Below, piece by piece: positions 3,596 to 10,800 of a stretch of DNA of 10,800 nt. The DNA comes from an uncultured Eubacterium sp. (lineage in GTDB: Bacteria > Bacillota > Clostridia > Lachnospirales > Lachnospiraceae): NCBI GenBank assembly GCA_905236295.1, contig CAJOQF010000016.1:1-10800 (forward strand), read 5' to 3'. The notes below the pieces were generated by a model. The model had not been told where the DNA came from, did not search any database, and saw nothing but the letters and a program-made list of their open reading frames with translations. A program made the translations under genes and the position numbers. Positions within the stretch are counted from its first letter, which is position 1; every line of letters starts with the position of its first letter.

Positions 3596-4621
3596 ATGGA
3601 TTATAAAGATTCAGGAGTAGATATAGAGGCGGGATACCGTTCCGTGGAACTGATGAAAAAGCATGTAAAAGAGACGATGAGACCGGAGGTGCTCGGAGGT
3701 CTCGGAGGCTTCTCAGGAGCTTTTTCCGCTGCGGCTTTCAAGGATATGGAGCATCCGATCCTTATGTCGGGAACAGACGGAGTCGGCACCAAGTTAAAGC
3801 TTGCTTTTTTGATGGACAAGCATGATACGATAGGAATAGATTGCGTGGCAATGTGCGTGAACGATATCGCATGCGCAGGCGCAAAACCGCTGTTTTTCCT
3901 CGATTATATTGCCTGCGGCAAGAACTTCCCGGAAAAGATCGCCACTATAGTATCGGGTGTGGCAGCAGGATGTAAGATGTCACACGCAGCTCTTATCGGC
4001 GGAGAGACCGCTGAGATGCCGGGCTTCTATCCGGAGGACGAGTATGACCTTGCCGGATTTGCTGTCGGCGTTGCAGATGAGAAGGACATTATAAACGGAA
4101 AGTCTCTCAAGGCCGGTGATGTCCTTGTAGGTATGGCTTCATCAGGAGTTCATTCAAACGGATTCTCGCTTGTAAGAAAGATATTCACAATGGATGAGAA
4201 AACATTAAACACTCATCATGACGAGCTCGGAAGAACTCTCGGAGAGGCACTCTTAGAGCCGACCAAGATCTATGTCCGGGCTTTGGAAGGCGTACAGGAA
4301 GCGGGCGTCAGGATCAAGGCTTGCAGCCATATCACAGGCGGTGGATTCTATGAGAATATTCCGCGTATGCTGATCGATGGCACAAGAGCTGTGGTAAACA
4401 AAAACAGTTATGAGATGCCGGCACTCTTTAAGCTTATGCAAAAAGAGGGAAATATCTCCGAGCAGATGATGTACAACACTTACAACTGCGGAATCGGAAT
4501 GGTGCTTGCCCTTGATCCGGCAGATGTTGATACTGCAATGAAAGCTATAAAGGACGCCGGAGAGACAGGATATGTCATCGGTGAGATCAAAGCCGGAGAA
4601 AAAGGAGTAGAGTTATGCTAA
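3596..4621 (+). CDS. purM: Phosphoribosylformylglycinamidine cyclo-ligase (AIR synthetase)
   Basis: PurM closes the imidazole ring: it converts FGAM and ATP to 5-aminoimidazole ribonucleotide. The 341-residue protein has the usual family length and motifs: the N-terminal GGFSGAF segment (37-43), [10 protein letters not shown] (59-68), [18 protein letters not shown] (87-104) and GGETAEMPG (135-143), with [15 protein letters not shown] in the second domain. These cover the ATP-binding interface of the PurM/PurL/HypE/SelD superfamily dimer. AAGGAG sits 5 nt before the ATG. The 3' end overlaps purN by 7 nt, so translation of the two is probably coupled. Confidence 0.97.
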
Positions 4622-5241
4622 GGATCGCGGTGCTCGTATCGGGCGGAGGTACAAATCTTCAGGCGATAATCGATTCAATAGAATCAGGAAAGCTTACAAA
4701 TGTCGAGATTGCAAGAGTCATATCAAACAACAAAAATGCAGGCGCTTTGGAGAGAGCGAAAAAGCATGGTATAGATGCTCTCTGCGTTTCACCTAAGGAC
4801 TATGACGACAGAGCACTCTTTAATAAGGCGCTCATAGCCGCCGTAGATGATGCAAAGGTGGATCTTGTGGTTTTGGCGGGATTCCTCGTGGTGATTCCTC
4901 AGGAGATGATAGTAAAGTATCGCAATCGTATTATCAATATTCACCCGTCACTCATACCTTCGTTCTGCGGAACAGGTTATTACGGATTGAAGGTTCACGA
5001 GGGTGCGCTTGAAAGAGGAGTCAAGGTCACGGGAGCCACAGTCCATTTTGTGGACGAGGGTACCGATACCGGCCCTATCATTTTACAAAAGCCCGTCGAG
5101 GTTTTAGATGACGATACGCCAAAGAGCCTGCAGCAGAGAGTTATGGAACAGGCTGAATGGGTGATCCTTCCAAAGGCGATCGGTCTTATAGCCGATGGCT
5201 TGGTTGAGGTAGTAGATAATAAAGTTAGAATAAGGAGATAG
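4615..5241 (+). CDS. purN: Phosphoribosylglycinamide formyltransferase (GAR transformylase)
   Basis: PurN transfers a formyl group from 10-formyltetrahydrofolate to GAR, the third step of purine synthesis. The 208-residue product begins with the substrate-binding loop [12 protein letters not shown] (7-18). The catalytic triad of the family is visible: N108 and H110 in [10 protein letters not shown], and D151 in [10 protein letters not shown]. The segment after HPSLIPSF reads [15 protein letters not shown], a variation on the folate-loop region that I associate with clostridial PurN. GGAG lies 7 nt before the ATG inside purM. The purD ribosome binding site is inside the end of this gene. The usual neighbour purH is absent. 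Confidence 0.96.
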
Positions 5242-5244
5242 AAG

Positions 5245-6516
5245 ATGAAGGTTCTTATAGTTGGAAGCGGCGGAAGAGAGCATGCTATCGCAGAATCCGT
5301 AAAGAGAAGTCCGAAAGTTGACAAGATTTATTGTGCGCCGGGCAATGCCGGAATAGGACAGATTGCCGAGTGCGTCGACATCAAAGCAATGGAGTTTGAC
5401 AAGCTTGTTGATTTCGCAAAGAGTGAAGGTATCGACCTTACGATAATCGGAATGGACGATCCGCTTGTTGGAGGAATTGTCGATGAATTTGAAAAGGCAG
5501 ATCTCCGCGTGTTCGGACCGAACAAGGCAGCAGCCATACTCGAGGGCAGCAAGGCGTTTTCAAAGGATCTTATGAAAAAATACAATATTCCGACTGCAAA
5601 GTATGAAAACTTTACCGATGCGGACGAGGCATTGAAATACATCGAGGCAGGCAAATTTCCTGTTGTGTTGAAAGCCGACGGTCTTGCTCTCGGAAAAGGC
5701 GTGCTTATCTGCAACAATCTTGACGAGGCAAAGGAAGGCATCAAGACCATCATGCAGGACAAGAAGTTCGGCGACGCCGGCAACACTATGGTTGTTGAGG
5801 AGTTTATGACCGGACGCGAGGTTTCGGTTCTCTCGTTTGTCGACGGAAAGACCATTAGGATAATGACTTCGGCTCAGGATCACAAGAGAGCCGGCGACGG
5901 AGATACCGGATTGAATACCGGAGGAATGGGCACATTCTCGCCGAGTCCGTTCTACACAAAAGAAGTTGATGAATTCTGCAAAAAATATATATTCCAGGCG
6001 AGTGTCGATGCTATGGCTACCGAGGGAAGAGAGTTTAAGGGCATAATCTTTTTCGGACTTATGCTTACCGAGGACGGCCCCAGAGTGCTTGAGTACAATG
6101 CGCGATTCGGCGATCCTGAGGCACAGGTTGTTCTCCCGCGTATGAAGAACGACATCATCGATGTCATCAATGCCTGCATCGATCAGACTCTGGATCAGGT
6201 TGAGCTTGAGTTTGAAGACAATGCGGCAGTTTGTGTGGTATTGGCTTCAGACGGATACCCTGTCAAATATGAAAAGGGCTTTGAGATCAAAGGTCTTGAG
6301 AAATTCGATGACAAGGATGGCTACTATTGCTTCCACGCCGGCACCAGACTCGATAACGGAAAGATCGTTACAAACGGTGGACGAGTGCTTGGAGTTACGG
6401 CAAAGGGCGAGAATCTTAAGGCGGCAAGAGCAAATGCTTACGAGGCTACCAAATGGATTGACTTTGAAAACAAATACATGAGAAATGATATAGGAAAGGC
6501 GATCGACGAGGCTTGA
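5245..6516 (+). CDS. purD: Phosphoribosylamine-glycine ligase (GAR synthetase)
   Basis: PurD ligates glycine to phosphoribosylamine using ATP, the second purine step; its product is the substrate of PurN just upstream. The 423-residue protein is full length. It has the N-terminal nucleotide-sugar site GSGGREHA (7-14), the ATP-grasp elements KADGLALGKGV (143-153) and VVEEFMTGREVS, the glycine-rich AQDHKRAGDGDTG (from 210) with NTGGMG, and the metal-binding EYNARFGDPE (283-292). The start is 3 nt after the purN stop, with AAGGAG 7 nt upstream of the ATG. A 7-bp hairpin straddles its stop codon. Confidence 0.97.
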   Translation: MKVLIVGSGGREHAIAESVKRSPKVDKIYCAPGNAGIGQIAECVDIKAMEFDKLVDFAKSEGIDLTIIGMDDPLVGGIVDEFEKADLRVFGPNKAAAILEGSKAFSKDLMKKYNIPTAKYENFTDADEALKYIEAGKFPVVLKADGLALGKGVLICNNLDEAKEGIKTIMQDKKFGDAGNTMVVEEFMTGREVSVLSFVDGKTIRIMTSAQDHKRAGDGDTGLNTGGMGTFSPSPFYTKEVDEFCKKYIFQASVDAMATEGREFKGIIFFGLMLTEDGPRVLEYNARFGDPEAQVVLPRMKNDIIDVINACIDQTLDQVELEFEDNAAVCVVLASDGYPVKYEKGFEIKGLEKFDDKDGYYCFHAGTRLDNGKIVTNGGRVLGVTAKGENLKAARANAYEATKWIDFENKYMRNDIGKAIDEA

Positions 6517-6524
6517 TGATCGCC
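6498..6524 (+). other. Hairpin across the purD stop codon
   Basis: GGCGATC (6498-6504) and GATCGCC (6518-6524) form a 7-bp perfect stem with a 13-nt loop holding the end of purD and its TGA. No T run follows, so it is not an intrinsic terminator. It could stabilise the upstream mRNA or limit entry to the next gene, whose own ribosome binding site is poor. Chance is also possible. Confidence 0.35.
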
Positions 6525-6535
6525 GTTAACAAGAG

Positions 6536-7921
6536 ATGAAAAACAAACGTATGAGTAAAGGTAAAAAGCTGGGTATTCTTATTCTTGCAATTGTTATAGT
6601 GCTTGCGATTGTTTACATTGCGTTATCTGTCTTTTTTACAAAGCATTATTTTATAGGCACCGTCATCGGTGATATAAAGTGCAGTGGAAAGTCTTTAGAG
6701 GGATTGCAGGAAACGATTACCCGGACAATAGATGAGTACAAACTTACCATAAACGAGCGCGAGGGAGTGACGGAGACTCTCGAGGGCAAGAGCATAAACC
6801 TCGCTCCGGATTTTGAGGCGAATAACGATCTGCAGGAAATCCTCGATAATCAGAACGGATTTGCGTGGTTATTCAACACCTTCAGGGATAATGTTTATCA
6901 GGCAGATACAGTGGTGACATTTGACGGAGTTGAGGAGGCGCTTGCCTCGCTTGATTGTGCTGATGAGAGCAAGTACAAGGAACCGGTAGATGCACATATT
7001 TCCGACTATGACAACGGATACAGCATCGTGGAAGAGGAGCTTGGAACTACGGTAGACAAGGAGAAACTTGTAAAAGCTGTTGAGGGTGCGGTTTCAAACC
7101 TTTCGGATACTTTAGATCTTGATACGGCGGGAGTATATGTTGAGCCCAAGCTGTATTCTGACAGTGAAGAACTGGTATCTGCTCTGGAGACAGCCAATAA
7201 ATATGCCAAAGCTAAAGTGACCTACACCTTCCCGGGGACGGATTCGGTCGTGCTTGAAGGCGCTGACGTCGCAGCGTTGATCACCATAGACGGAACCGAT
7301 GTCACAGTAGATCAGGACAAGGTTACAGAGTGGCTTCGAGGTCTCTCACATGATCACAATACTATCTTCTCGACGAGGGAGTTTACCACCACAGCCGGCA
7401 AGACAATAGAGGTCTCAGGCGGCGACTATGGCTGGTGGATGAACAACGCAAAAGAGAGGGAATTGTTGACGGAAAATATTAAAAACGGTGAGACTGTGGA
7501 GAAAGAACCGGAGTATTACCAGCGTGCGGCAGTTTACGGCGACAACGACTACGGCAATACTTACGTTGAGGTTGACTTAAAGAATCAGCATATGTATTTC
7601 TACAAGTCGGGAAGTCTGGTGCTTGAGTCAGACTGTGTGACCGGCAACCCGAACAGAGGCAACGGAACTCCGAAGGGTACATACGGAATAACCTATAAGG
7701 AGAGGGAAGCCACCCTCGTCGGAGAAGACTATGAGACGCCGGTTGAATACTGGATGCCGTTTAACGGAAACATAGGTCTTCACGATGCAAGCTGGAGAAA
7801 TGAATTTGGCGGGAATATATATAAGGAGAGCGGCTCGCACGGCTGTGTAAATCTTCCGCCGAGCGTGGCAAAACAGCTCTATGAAGTTATCTCAAAGGGC
7901 GATCCGGTCTTTGTATATTAA
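6536..7921 (+). CDS. Membrane-anchored L,D-transpeptidase (YkuD domain)
   Basis: This enzyme class makes 3-3 peptidoglycan crosslinks, and its members often resist most beta-lactams. The 461-residue protein has a short basic N-terminus, one membrane segment (about 12-33), an extracellular middle region of two peptidoglycan-binding-like modules (PG_binding_4 type, about 60-330), and a C-terminal YkuD catalytic domain (341-461). The active-site signature is complete: H416 in GLHDASW, and SHGCVN with H435 and nucleophile C437. Length and cysteine position are close to Enterococcus faecium Ldtfm (466 residues, C442, from memory). The start lies 19 nt after purD; the only SD-like bases (AAGAG) touch the ATG, and an upstream in-frame stop excludes an earlier start, so translation may depend on coupling to purD. 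It is the last gene of the operon. Confidence 0.92.
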   Translation: MKNKRMSKGKKLGILILAIVIVLAIVYIALSVFFTKHYFIGTVIGDIKCSGKSLEGLQETITRTIDEYKLTINEREGVTETLEGKSINLAPDFEANNDLQEILDNQNGFAWLFNTFRDNVYQADTVVTFDGVEEALASLDCADESKYKEPVDAHISDYDNGYSIVEEELGTTVDKEKLVKAVEGAVSNLSDTLDLDTAGVYVEPKLYSDSEELVSALETANKYAKAKVTYTFPGTDSVVLEGADVAALITIDGTDVTVDQDKVTEWLRGLSHDHNTIFSTREFTTTAGKTIEVSGGDYGWWMNNAKERELLTENIKNGETVEKEPEYYQRAAVYGDNDYGNTYVEVDLKNQHMYFYKSGSLVLESDCVTGNPNRGNGTPKGTYGITYKEREATLVGEDYETPVEYWMPFNGNIGLHDASWRNEFGGNIYKESGSHGCVNLPPSVAKQLYEVISKGDPVFVY

Positions 7922-7929
7922 GGCTCAAG

Positions 7930-7945
7930 TAGGAAAATTTTCCTA
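7930..7945. promoter_or_regulatory. 16-bp perfect palindrome after the transpeptidase gene
   Basis: TAGGAAAATTTTCCTA is a perfect dyad 8 nt after the transpeptidase stop. It overlaps a poor -35-like TTCCTA (7940-7945) that is 18 nt from a TATGAT (7964-7969). It could be an operator for a dimeric regulator, an extra 3' stem of the operon transcript, or chance in an AT-rich spacer. A promoter here would have to read through the terminator just beyond. Confidence 0.35.
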
Positions 7946-7977
7946 TATAAACAAAAGAATAATTATGATAGAATTTT

Positions 7978-8011
7978 GGCACAGTTTTCATAACTGTGTC
8001 ATTTTCTTTTT
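7978..8011 (+). terminator. Intrinsic terminator of the operon
   Basis: GGCACAGTT (7978-7986) pairs with AACTGTGTC (7992-8000), one G-U pair, around a TTCAT loop, and is followed by ATTTTCTTTTT. It closes the pyrE-to-transpeptidase transcript. No convincing promoter for the downstream surface-protein gene is seen between here and 8054. Confidence 0.85.
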
Positions 8012-8063
8012 AAATCCCAATTAATAAAACCGAATAGTATTATGCCCTTCGACGGAGGTTAGT

Positions 8064-9500
8064 ATGGGAAAAAAACGTGAATTTAAACCGCTAGTTATAG
8101 GCGCAACAACAGCCATAGTGGCAGCGATTGGAACAGTGGGGATAATGTCTTCTGTTGTGGTACCTGCGTACACAGAAGCAAAGACTGCAGAGATCGAAAA
8201 GGATGCGCAAAAGCTGAAGGAAGTAATGCAGGCTGCATCCGAGCCCGAAGAAAGCTCAGTGGCGGAAAACACAGAGGCTATTGAGACGAACACTTATGAT
8301 ATGAACGCTTATGATGGGAAAACTTATGGTACGAATGCTTATGATGACGGGCAGGAACCGGAAGACGGGCTTGTGTTAAAAGATTTTGAGGAAGACCCAC
8401 CGAGTGTCAGCGAATACGTTGTCGAGCCTGATAAAGAGGAGACTGAGATTGCGGAAAAAATCTCGGCAAACAAATCCGATAAGAGCGGTCGTTTGAATTC
8501 CGTTGTCACGGATATAGCGAATATGGATACAGGGACGACGGAAGTGGTAAAAAAAGCTGTGACCGTAAAGGAAGCTGTCGATGACAGCGATGTTTCGGTT
8601 ATAAAGAAACTGACCTTAAAAAGCCGTGTCTCAAAGGTTGAAAAGAATTATAAAAAACTCAAGAAAGCGATGACAGCGGCTTTAAATGCGTATGTAAGAT
8701 CGGATAAAAAGGCTACCGAAAAGCTTCAGAAAAAGATGACGAAAAACGCCACAGCTCTGAGTAAAGCAAAGAAAAAACTTGATGCGGCGGTGCTATCTCT
8801 TGATACAAATTCCAAGGATGTGGAGGGGCTTAAGACAAAGCTTGAGGAGTATTCAAAAAGCGCTGTGACATCGGTTCGGGTCGATCAGATGAAAAACGAG
8901 ATTCTTGCGTCGGTTAATGATGCAAAGTATGTAAGTAAGGATGAGCTTGCGGCACTCGAGAGCCTTGTAAACAAATCGCAGAAACTGACAGATACGGAGA
9001 TTGAAAATCTAAAGAAGCTTATAAATCAGGGGCAGTCGGACTCTACAAAGTCACAGGTAAGCAATGTGAGCGGGGAGAGTACGGACACTGTTACGGGGCT
9101 TACGACATTAAAAGAAGCATTCTATAAATATATAAATGACAACGATGCTAATATAAAGGAACTGAAAGACAATTCGACAGCCCAGGGCAAGAGCATTGAC
9201 GAGCTGAAAACTGAGTCGAAGCAACAGAAAGAGGAGATAAGTTCAATAAAGAGCACGGCGGATTCACAAAAAGAGGCGATAGATGCGATAAAGAGTACGG
9301 CGGATTCTCAAAAAGAGGCGATAGATGCGATAAAGAGTGACGCCGACTCTCAGAGAGAGACGATAAACGCAATAAGCGGGAATATTCAACAAGTTTTAAG
9401 TGAAAGCCTCGGCGACTGCACGCTCAGTTATAAAAACGGACATTTCTATATCACTTACTCGGAAGGGGGTGCCGATTCAGTATCAAAAAAATTGGATTGA
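8064..9500 (+). CDS. Membrane-anchored coiled-coil surface protein, frame-0 part
   Basis: I do not recognise a named family. The 478-residue product starts at an ATG with GGAGG 5 nt upstream. Residues 9-34 form one hydrophobic segment after a basic start, a signal anchor or uncleaved signal peptide. Residues 50-125 are acidic and low in complexity, with a two-copy TY-x-x-NAYD repeat. Residues about 190-350 are lysine-rich with heptad spacing, and residues 367-450 are 14-residue tandem repeats, predicted coiled coil. It ends with GDCTLSYKNGHFYITYSEGG and SVSKKLD. The stop lies 6 nt after an in-phase A_AAA_AAA run, where a -1 shift would join it to the next frame. A structural or adhesive surface role is inferred. 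It follows a terminator, so is a separate transcription unit. Confidence 0.75.
   Translation: MGKKREFKPLVIGATTAIVAAIGTVGIMSSVVVPAYTEAKTAEIEKDAQKLKEVMQAASEPEESSVAENTEAIETNTYDMNAYDGKTYGTNAYDDGQEPEDGLVLKDFEEDPPSVSEYVVEPDKEETEIAEKISANKSDKSGRLNSVVTDIANMDTGTTEVVKKAVTVKEAVDDSDVSVIKKLTLKSRVSKVEKNYKKLKKAMTAALNAYVRSDKKATEKLQKKMTKNATALSKAKKKLDAAVLSLDTNSKDVEGLKTKLEEYSKSAVTSVRVDQMKNEILASVNDAKYVSKDELAALESLVNKSQKLTDTEIENLKKLINQGQSDSTKSQVSNVSGESTDTVTGLTTLKEAFYKYINDNDANIKELKDNSTAQGKSIDELKTESKQQKEEISSIKSTADSQKEAIDAIKSTADSQKEAIDAIKSDADSQRETINAISGNIQQVLSESLGDCTLSYKNGHFYITYSEGGADSVSKKLD
8292..8351 (+). repeat. Two-copy 30-bp coding repeat
   Basis: Two imperfect 30-bp units beginning ACTTATG at 8292 and 8322 encode TYDMNAYDGK and TYGTNAYDDG. 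They lie in the acidic linker just outside the membrane segment. Copy number may vary between strains. Confidence 0.7.
9162..9413 (+). repeat. Six 14-residue (42-bp) coiled-coil repeats
   Basis: The 42-nt period is exact: units start at 9162, 9204, 9246, 9288, 9330 and 9372. The two copies at 9246 and 9288 encode the same peptide, IKSTADSQKEAIDA, and differ at only a few bases; the outer copies (LKDNSTAQGKSIDE, LKTESKQQKEEISS, IKSDADSQRETINA, and a degenerate last one) are diverged. Fourteen residues equal two heptads, so the block extends a parallel coiled-coil stalk. Recent duplication of the central copies is likely. Confidence 0.85.
9461..9500 (+). promoter_or_regulatory. Candidate -1 frameshift site, A_AAA_AAA with SD-like stimulator
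   Basis: Seven A (9485-9491) lie in frame 0 as tcA AAA AAA, the phase needed for tandem -1 slippage. Upstream, AAGGGGGTG (9463-9471) can pair with the 16S anti-SD with one G-U pair and ends about 14 nt before the heptamer, similar to the dnaX arrangement. The frame-0 stop is 6 nt after the run. The -1 frame is open from 9434 and continues for about 400 codons. I see no strong stem at the usual distance downstream; a 5-bp TGCCG/CGGCA pair at 9519-9547 is too far and weak. Confidence 0.5.
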
Positions 9501-10690
9501 CAAACATAAAACTCTATCTGCCGGGAAGTAATGAATATGTAGCGGCAACAGTGCAGACGGTCTCGCGCCGCGGAGGGGATTATGTTGTTGAATATATAGA
9601 TAATACAGGTACCCTGTCGAAGCTGAACGGCAAAAAACTGAACGATACATTTAAATACATAGATGCCTCGCAAAAAGAGGGTTATAAATTCCTCGGGTGG
9701 GAGACCGGGAAAAATTCCGGAAATATGGTGTCGATGACATATGATGATCAGTCTCAAAAATACTCGCATGATATAAGCGAAGGAATGACATTGTATCCCG
9801 TGTTTAAAGATTGCGACAAACCTAAGCTGTCAGTGGAGATCAAGACGGGATGGAATGAAAAATGCGTAGTCAGTGCATCCGCAACCGATGGTGGATCGGG
9901 AGTGAGAGGATATTACATTGGCTATCAGAATCCGGACGAGGAATATGTTGAGTACAGCAAGGAAGCATCAAAGGAGATAACAGACAGCGGGTTGCTCTAT
10001 GTGGCTGCGATCGATAATGAGGGAAATACACTCTCTACAGAAATCGATCTAAGGAAACTGACCTACAACGTTGTTGTATCGGATACAAAATATAACAAGA
10101 CTTACACGCTGATTGCGAATGTGGGTGAAACACTGGATTTTAAAGAACTCGCACCGCCTAACTGCAGCCTGAAGACCTTAGAGACGGCGATGGGGGATAC
10201 GGTATCCGATGGATATGTTGTATCGGATAATATGAGATTCTACGCCGTATATGAGGAGGATAAGCACACCTTCGGAAAGTGGCATACCGCAGTGATGCCG
10301 ACATGTGTGACAGATGGAGAAAACCACAGGGTATGTGAGGTCTGCGGCGAGGTTGATAAAGACGTGATTCCGGCACAGGGGCATGTTTTTGGAGATAAAT
10401 GGGCGGAGGTTACGCCTATGATTTGTTCAGAGCATGACGGTGAAAGACAGCGCAGATGCGAGATGTGTGAGGAGGTCGAAAAAGAGATCATTCCTATGAA
10501 GGATAATCATGAGATGTCGGAATGGAAACTTTCGAGCACAGCGGTATCTAAGGATGGACTTGTGATTGAATACTTTACAAAGAAATGCTTGAATTGCAAA
10601 TATACGATAAAGACAGGATTTACCACAGAGTATGATGTGGAGAGCTATGAGGCGCTCGCTCCGGAGTTGAAGCCTGTTTCCAGACCGTAA
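9497..10690 (+). CDS. InlB/Ig-like and CxxC-repeat surface module, -1 frame
   Basis: This frame codes 397 residues from a TTG that overlaps the previous stop (TTGA). It has no signal peptide, no membrane segment and no usable ribosome binding site; the nearest SD-like bases are 27 nt upstream. The content is of the secreted type. An InlB B-repeat/Flg_new-like module spans about 35-105 (GYKFLGW at 62-68, LYPVFKD at 99-105). An Ig-like stretch (ATDGGSGVRGYYIG ... VAAIDNEGN) covers about 108-190, and a second InlB-like half ends in FYAVYEE. Three cysteine repeats follow (C270/C280/C283, C310/C321/C324, C364/C367). No LPXTG or sortase signal is present. It is most simply the C-terminal part of the preceding protein reached by a -1 shift (875 residues fused). 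Alternatives are reinitiation at the TTG, or a broken gene. Confidence 0.65.
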   Translation: MTNIKLYLPGSNEYVAATVQTVSRRGGDYVVEYIDNTGTLSKLNGKKLNDTFKYIDASQKEGYKFLGWETGKNSGNMVSMTYDDQSQKYSHDISEGMTLYPVFKDCDKPKLSVEIKTGWNEKCVVSASATDGGSGVRGYYIGYQNPDEEYVEYSKEASKEITDSGLLYVAAIDNEGNTLSTEIDLRKLTYNVVVSDTKYNKTYTLIANVGETLDFKELAPPNCSLKTLETAMGDTVSDGYVVSDNMRFYAVYEEDKHTFGKWHTAVMPTCVTDGENHRVCEVCGEVDKDVIPAQGHVFGDKWAEVTPMICSEHDGERQRRCEMCEEVEKEIIPMKDNHEMSEWKLSSTAVSKDGLVIEYFTKKCLNCKYTIKTGFTTEYDVESYEALAPELKPVSRP

Positions 10691-10693
10691 AAC

Positions 10694-10718
10694 TGATATC
10701 TAAGGATGTTTGATATCT
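10694..10718. repeat. Paired TGATATCT repeats upstream of the right-edge promoter
   Basis: TGATATCT occurs at 10694-10701 and 10711-10718, a 17-bp period. The core GATATC is self-complementary, so the pair can also be read as an inverted repeat. They sit just upstream of the -35 box at 10729 and could bind a regulator of the next gene. Confidence 0.35.
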
Positions 10719-10728
10719 CAATTGTAAG

Positions 10729-10758
10729 TTGACTTGCAGGTGTAAAGTTTTGTATTAT
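10729..10758 (+). promoter_or_regulatory. Promoter for the gene beyond the right edge
   Basis: TTGACT (10729-10734) and TATTAT (10753-10758) are 18 bases apart. Predicted transcription start is near 10765, giving a leader of about 30 nt before the expected start codon. Confidence 0.6.
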
Positions 10759-10790
10759 AAAGGGTGGTAAAAAAGAGATATAGTATAAGA

Positions 10791-10796
10791 CGGAGG
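10791..10796 (+). promoter_or_regulatory. Ribosome binding site of the next gene
   Basis: CGGAGG lies 4 bases from the window end and repeats the GACGGAGG site used at 8051-8058. The start codon must lie at or just past 10801; no coding sequence of that gene is in the window. Confidence 0.6.
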
Positions 10797-10800
10797 CAAA

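Follow-up and report, generated by a model that had tools for sequence, protein, structure and literature searches.

We describe a gene on contig CAJOQF010000016.1 of an uncultured Eubacterium sp. (Lachnospiraceae) that probably uses programmed -1 ribosomal frameshifting of the kind known from dnaX to yield a surface stalk in two forms, one of which has an extracellular head, a reading that is drawn from sequence comparison. The stretch analysed (the window, 10,800 nt) is the entire contig C16 of a fragmented metagenome-assembled genome (MAG), G000 (387 contigs, 79.87% complete), and the host bacterium is probably a gut dweller. The first-pass annotation of this DNA had reported an in-phase A_AAA_AAA heptamer with a Shine-Dalgarno (SD)-like element upstream, a stop codon in frame 0 after it and a long open -1 frame, all of which we recovered in the window. 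We found the same arrangement in relatives from two other genera, and in a further relative the slip site is absent and the two halves are encoded by two overlapping genes.

Anatomy of the gene

The features that make up the gene and its proposed recoding site are the following:

8064..9500, + strand: frame-0 open reading frame (ORF) of 478 residues, with a Lys-rich N-terminus, a single hydrophobic segment and a long helical/coiled-coil stalk (from the translation, with topology and coiled coil assessed by eye)
8094..8171 (limits approximate), + strand: hydrophobic N-terminal segment, a putative membrane anchor or signal, from the translation
9411..9497, + strand: conserved C-terminal motif of the short product, GDCTLSYKNGHFYITYSEGGADSVSKKLD, common to the protein clusters P0004-P0008 and to the loci L055 and G287 described below (alignment A4)
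9464..9469, + strand: internal SD-like element AGGGGG, with an anti-SD duplex within the best 2.7% of local slots
9485..9491, + strand: slippery heptamer A_AAA_AAA, the proposed -1 shift site, which L055 and G287 also carry in this phase
9498..9500, + strand: frame-0 stop TGA, two codons past the slip site, overlapping the TTG at 9497-9499
9491..10690, + strand: -1 ORF, a putative C-terminal extension of 399 residues that would bring the long product to 875 residues by codon count (first-domain similarity to G457 gene 2 and L065, and third-position bias relative to contig C223, see below)

The frame-0 ORF, in which all Pfam matches are sub-threshold, terminates as ...GGADSVSKKLD, and the codons at the slip site read TCA AAA AAA TTG GAT TGA, with A_AAA_AAA in the frame-0 phase. 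The -1 frame has its preceding stop at 9431-9433 and is open through to 10690 (401 codons counted from the slip); its first start codon after the slip is the TTG at 9497, followed 18 codons later by a GTG. As the gene is Lys-rich and in-phase X_XXY_YYZ heptamers occur five times in its frame-0 ORF, three times as A7, the heptamer by itself is unremarkable. It is at 9485-9491 alone that the -1 frame stays open for 401 codons, being shut 3-11 codons after each of the other four, and the recurrence of the entire arrangement in other genera takes the case beyond chance. The further in-phase A7 heptamers are situated at 8069-8075 and 8549-8555, where the -1 frame shuts after 3 and 11 codons, respectively; that at 8069-8075 also has an SD-like sequence in range, which is probably the gene's own ribosome binding site.

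We propose that this single gene gives rise to two membrane-anchored surface proteins with a common N-terminal anchor and coiled-coil stalk. The majority of ribosomes would pass AAA AAA without leaving frame 0 and terminate two codons later, releasing a headless stalk of 478 residues that carries the conserved motif at its end. Pairing between the internal AGGGGG element and the 16S ribosomal RNA would hold some ribosomes at the slip site, where they would slip one base back on A_AAA_AAA and proceed in the -1 frame, which would produce a protein of 875 residues consisting of the stalk and an extracellular head (InlB-type repeat, immunoglobulin (Ig)-like domain and CxxC modules). Both forms would have to be exported, and from its domain type the head may function in adhesion or ligand binding. 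Since an A_AAA_AAA cassette gave 10% shifting in the part of PMC3711429 considered here, headed stalks would naturally be expected to be a minority.

Relatives with the same slip site

Using the frame-0 half as a query we obtained P0004, a protein of 367 residues that ends in the same motif, and its last 46 residues, used as a query in turn against proteins of up to about 640 residues, retrieved six clusters (P0003-P0008), the full set of candidates, with KKLD at the end or at most 3 residues before it in 6/6. The listed member sequences number 1, 1, 91, 4, 12 and 165 for P0003 to P0008, P0003 being the window's own protein. P0005 and P0008 comprise anchored coiled-coil proteins with the motif at the end, and their 91 and 165 members suggest that the stalk family may be common in metagenomes, though rare among species representatives.

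At the DNA level, a degenerate pattern of the motif run against genome_contigs matched two records, one a chance match and the other L055, a contig (also numbered L065) of an uncultured Roseburia MAG that is independent of the MAG of the window. Its frame-0 ORF ends in DGHFYITYEKEGADSVTKKLDYAE*, its A7 shares the phase of that in the window, and no stop interrupts the -1 frame for 654 codons. A profile search with the motif yielded G287 (locus L068), a genome of 30 contigs that is ~100% complete and belongs to a different genus of the window's family; here DGHFYITYGEGEKAVTKKLDYVD* closes the frame-0 ORF, the phase of the A7 is again that of the window, and the -1 frame continues for 495 codons without a stop. 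As the search of the genus of L055 lists neither G000 nor G287, we place L055 in a third genus. The arrangement is conserved across species in three genera. All three loci encode an anchored stalk with the shared motif (..V[ST]KKLD), have seven A in phase and carry TTG GAY directly after the A7, and the frame-0 stop follows after two (window) or five (L055 and G287) further codons. The first-pass annotation had suggested such a comparison of relatives, in which a retained A7 and frame-0 stop would favour recoding; that is what the two other genera display, and eight A, which would have spoken for a mutation or an error, were seen in 0/3 loci.

The genomic surroundings differ among the three. 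The window gene is preceded by a YkuD gene and, as judged from the overlap with contig C223, is followed by what we take to be a molybdopterin-type gene; the gene of L055 is flanked by what are presumably glmS and a peptidoglycan-binding-like gene, and that of G287 presumably by dprA and topA (apart from YkuD, the names are assigned from reading the sequences). In G003, the one genome of the window's genus in which synteny was read, ykuD lies beside purD, followed by a helix-turn-helix gene, and the stalk gene was not found there.

Proposed recoding signals and codon conservation

An X_XXY_YYZ heptamer (A_AAA_AAA) in the frame-0 phase and an upstream SD-like element, the latter defined by the criterion given in the part of PMC4066793 considered here, are found in 3/3 loci. 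The distance of the element to the slip site is 17/16 nt in the window, 14 in L055 and 15/14 in G287, and besides that of the window the anti-SD duplex energies of L055 and G287 are among the best 6.7% and 4% of local slots, respectively. We propose that the element acts as a stimulator. TTG makes up 9% of the Leu codons in eight genes of the window, yet it is the codon at the slip site in 3/3 loci. A strong downstream fold (60 nt; pseudoknots lie outside the model) was predicted in G287 only, at the 2nd percentile of local windows; in bacterial -1 frameshifting a downstream stem-loop or pseudoknot is frequent without being obligatory.

The window and L055 also use the same codons around the site. 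For degenerate residues shared between the two, the codon is identical in 9/9 cases from GAD to LD and in 2/14 immediately upstream (one-sided Fisher 6.7e-5, with a boundary that was picked after inspection). The proposed recoding cassette reads SD-like element, A_AAA_AAA, TTGGAY and stop, with a conserved GCCGATTCAGTA spacer in 2/3 loci.

The -1 frame and the head

That the -1 frame is translated is suggested by a second contig of the same MAG, C223 (L027), which ends in a variant of the 3' part of the gene that is 94.8% identical over 381 nt including flank (window 10420-10800), so that the MAG mixes strains. The 17 differences within the ORF fall 3, 3 and 11 times on -1-frame codon positions 1, 2 and 3, a third-position bias as would be expected for a translated frame, though the differences are few. 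The C223 variant lacks the TAA at 10688-10690, and its reading frame is two codons longer.

A counterpart is seen in G457, found in the genus of L055, in which two overlapping genes appear to replace the one recoded gene. The pair is located on the minus strand of contig C35 (L064) at 3897-8098, and the start of gene 2 overlaps the stop of gene 1. Gene 1 encodes an anchor, a coiled coil and a related C-terminal motif, ends in GHFYAEYFGGEDEISRQLDYVSQGGM* and has no slip site, reading AGA CAA at the position of AAA AAA. Gene 2 starts with a signal-like N-terminus of its own (by eye), and from KEVGYC on it carries the head domains. It extends beyond the head into a long C-terminal part common to L065. 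The structure predicted for residues 1-420 of gene 2 is poor (mean predicted local distance difference test score 49.9). A stalk motif upstream of the junction in gene 2 appeared plausible by eye and was not supported by two tests (hhalign E 0.35; the top hmmsearch matches listed were all shuffled sequences). The stand-alone second gene that the first-pass annotation had named as a sign of independent translation was thus encountered only in a relative that lacks the slip site.

From its first residue on, the -1 half of L065 is similar to G457 gene 2 (677 positions, 38% identity, 1.7e-164), and the first 85 residues of the L055 -1 half align with the first 78 of the G287 half (24%, 7.8e-4). 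A multiple alignment joins the four heads beginning at the junction, and K1, G4 and L10 near its start are invariant. In G287 there is no ATG, GTG or TTG within 83 codons after the slip. The domains within the head of the window are as follows:

9581..9733, + strand: List_Bact/InlB-B-type repeat (Pfam Flg_new), 20.9 bits, below the gathering cut-off of 27
9857..10030, + strand: Ig-like/OmpL47-type domain, 21.2 bits, below the curated cut-off of 40
10255..10590 (limits approximate), + strand: Cys-rich CxxC modules close to the C-terminus of the long product, with similar stretches in relatives (blastp with the L068 half, 1.6e-7)

The InlB, Ig and CxxC names given in the first-pass annotation therefore hold loosely, the first two domains scoring under their cut-offs in the window; Flg_new was found above its gathering score in L065 (94.6 bits) and in G457 gene 2 (82.3 bits).

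Weighing the alternatives

Several observations weigh against frameshifting on the ribosome. The arrangement is carried by three loci in all, the gene is rare in all genome samples described below, and P0004-P0008 enter the comparison as proteins alone. The codon excess around the site is confined to the window and L055, the identities being 3/5 against 9/15 upstream for the window and G287 (p 0.70) and 4/6 against 4/14 for L055 and G287 (p 0.14), and the spacer of G287 codes for different residues. The predicted downstream fold is weak in the window (62nd percentile) and in L055 (28th). The heads differ between the loci, without a Pfam match in L068, and the -1 half of the window matches G457 gene 2 from residue 25 only (171 positions, 28%, 2.4e-12), L065 only from residue 64 (2.7e-4) and L068 mainly in the CxxC part, with additional marginal pieces. 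The first 24 -1 residues of the window therefore have no pairwise support, and the alignment at the junction depends on L065-G457 and L065-L068. Finally, the frame-0 stop overlaps a start codon in the window (TTGA, 9497-9500) and in L055 (GTGA).

These overlaps, together with the gene pair in G457, are what would be expected if two separate proteins were made by termination in frame 0 and reinitiation at the TTG (window) or GTG (L055). We consider this quite improbable, as the -1 frame of G287 aligns with that of L065 from residue one and yet offers no such codon for 83 codons (rarer starts are possible), the -1 peptide KKIGL lies before the start codons in the window and L055, and the product would carry secreted-type domains with neither signal nor anchor, whereas the separate gene of G457 has a signal-like N-terminus. 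The weak folds of the window and L055 would agree with slippage of the RNA polymerase on the A7, by which one A would be added in some transcripts and standard translation would give the long product. A-runs are slippery for RNA polymerase, and the part of PMC3711429 considered here treats poly-A dnaX in this way and arguably shorter runs too, the shortest being seven A. The same part associates transcriptional realignment with runs of more than seven A (An, n > 7) and reports a rise from 10% for cassettes with 7 A to 63% for those with 11 A, whereas exactly seven A are present in 3/3 loci; moreover, polymerase slippage needs neither SD-like elements at ribosomal spacing (3/3) nor the conservation between the window and L055 around the site. 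This explanation is unlikely in our view.

Homopolymers in surface genes can vary, and individual cells could be switched between the short form (A7) and the long form (A8) by slippage during replication. Seven A is a short run for phase variation, however, and we give this explanation very little credence: 3/3 loci are in the A7 state, and the SD-like elements and the conservation around the site would be unneeded. Our protein searches were limited in length and long in-frame forms would be hidden from them, and according to the part of PMC3711429 considered here, surface or secretory proteins account for many of the large frameshift clusters. In a fragmented MAG with mixed strains (C223), one might suspect an error of sequencing or assembly, or decay of the gene. 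This is very unlikely, since relatives in two other genera carry the slip site at the corresponding position: recurrence in three genera, with the same break, to the base and in phase, in the ~100% complete G287 and in an independent Roseburia MAG, contradicts an error, and the third-position bias of the -1 ORF relative to C223 speaks against both error and decay. Programmed -1 frameshifting thus remains the probable explanation.

Occurrence

In the counts that follow known members are included and the samples overlap. Among 397 genomes of the family there are 2 carriers, the own genome of the window and G287, and the same two are found in genomes drawn at a completeness limit of 98 (2/397). 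In the genus of L055 the carriers are 2/62 (its own genome and G457), and among relatives of G287 2/395 matched, one of which (G529, L069) was a short match that was discarded as chance or unrelated. With a stricter DNA pattern, which is unable to match G287, 5/397 matched, and the true motif was present in the window's own genome alone. In the four genomes of the window's genus, a search with the frame-0 half recovered the gene of the window and, in G003, one weak match of coiled-coil type.

No orthologue of the 399-residue second half was found among proteins (candidates up to about 698 residues; only the half itself and one CxxC-repeat protein matched), in genome_contigs (a search that reaches close relatives only) or in 60 relatives, of which 11 besides the own genome match in the CxxC part only. 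Relatives of P0006 were not found in phages, plasmids and viral contigs, the slip-core pattern was not found in viral contigs, and solved structures searched with A3 gave 0 matches. We discarded the pattern matches L050, L051, L053, L054 and L056-L060 as chance or unrelated, as well as seven other A3 matches, the four examined (L074, L075, L077 and L080) being List_Bact-repeat proteins without a stalk.

Comparison with known recoded genes

To our knowledge, few chromosomal, non-mobile bacterial gene families have conserved programmed frameshifting, namely dnaX, prfB, copA and csoS2. As in dnaX, we find an A-rich in-phase heptamer (A_AAA_AAG in E. coli) and two predicted products with a common N-terminus. 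An SD-like stimulator likewise lies upstream of the site in E. coli dnaX. In the reversed two-ORF form of dnaX (e.g. of Chlorobium) the frame-0 stop lies after the slip site and the long form is made by shifting, as proposed here (parts of PMC5009743 and PMC3711429 considered here). Unlike dnaX, the present gene would encode a surface stalk and not a DNA polymerase, its heptamer ends in AAA and a strong downstream fold is predicted in G287 only. The carboxysome gene csoS2 (cso2) has short and long product forms. It encodes a structural protein with -1 frameshifting, similar to our proposal, and differs in being an unrelated protein with a complex 3' stem-loop and, in the part of PMC5009743 considered here, apparently no SD stimulator. 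Magnesium chelatase is a further chromosomal family with frameshifting, in which the fs-genes have, like the present gene, a poly-A -1 frameshift between adjacent ORFs (part of PMC3711429 considered here); it is not a surface protein and has fused relatives, whereas the relative found here (G457) is split into two genes. An earlier description of a frameshifted surface-protein gene of this kind was not found in a literature search that covered few subscription journals.

It seems an even question to us whether the gene represents a surface-protein family of single genes in varied housekeeping surroundings of related bacteria, in which a conserved recoding cassette would determine how many stalks are headless and how many headed, and in which recoding and splitting would be interchangeable, one relative using a split gene pair. 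At such loci gene callers would list the stalk as a complete coiled-coil protein and the head as an orphan without a signal. The two genes of G457 provide a natural contrast for asking why recoding fixes a ratio. On the best reading, a surface stalk gene is added to the known cases of dnaX-like programmed frameshifting, which, if true, would extend programmed frameshifting to cell-surface architecture.

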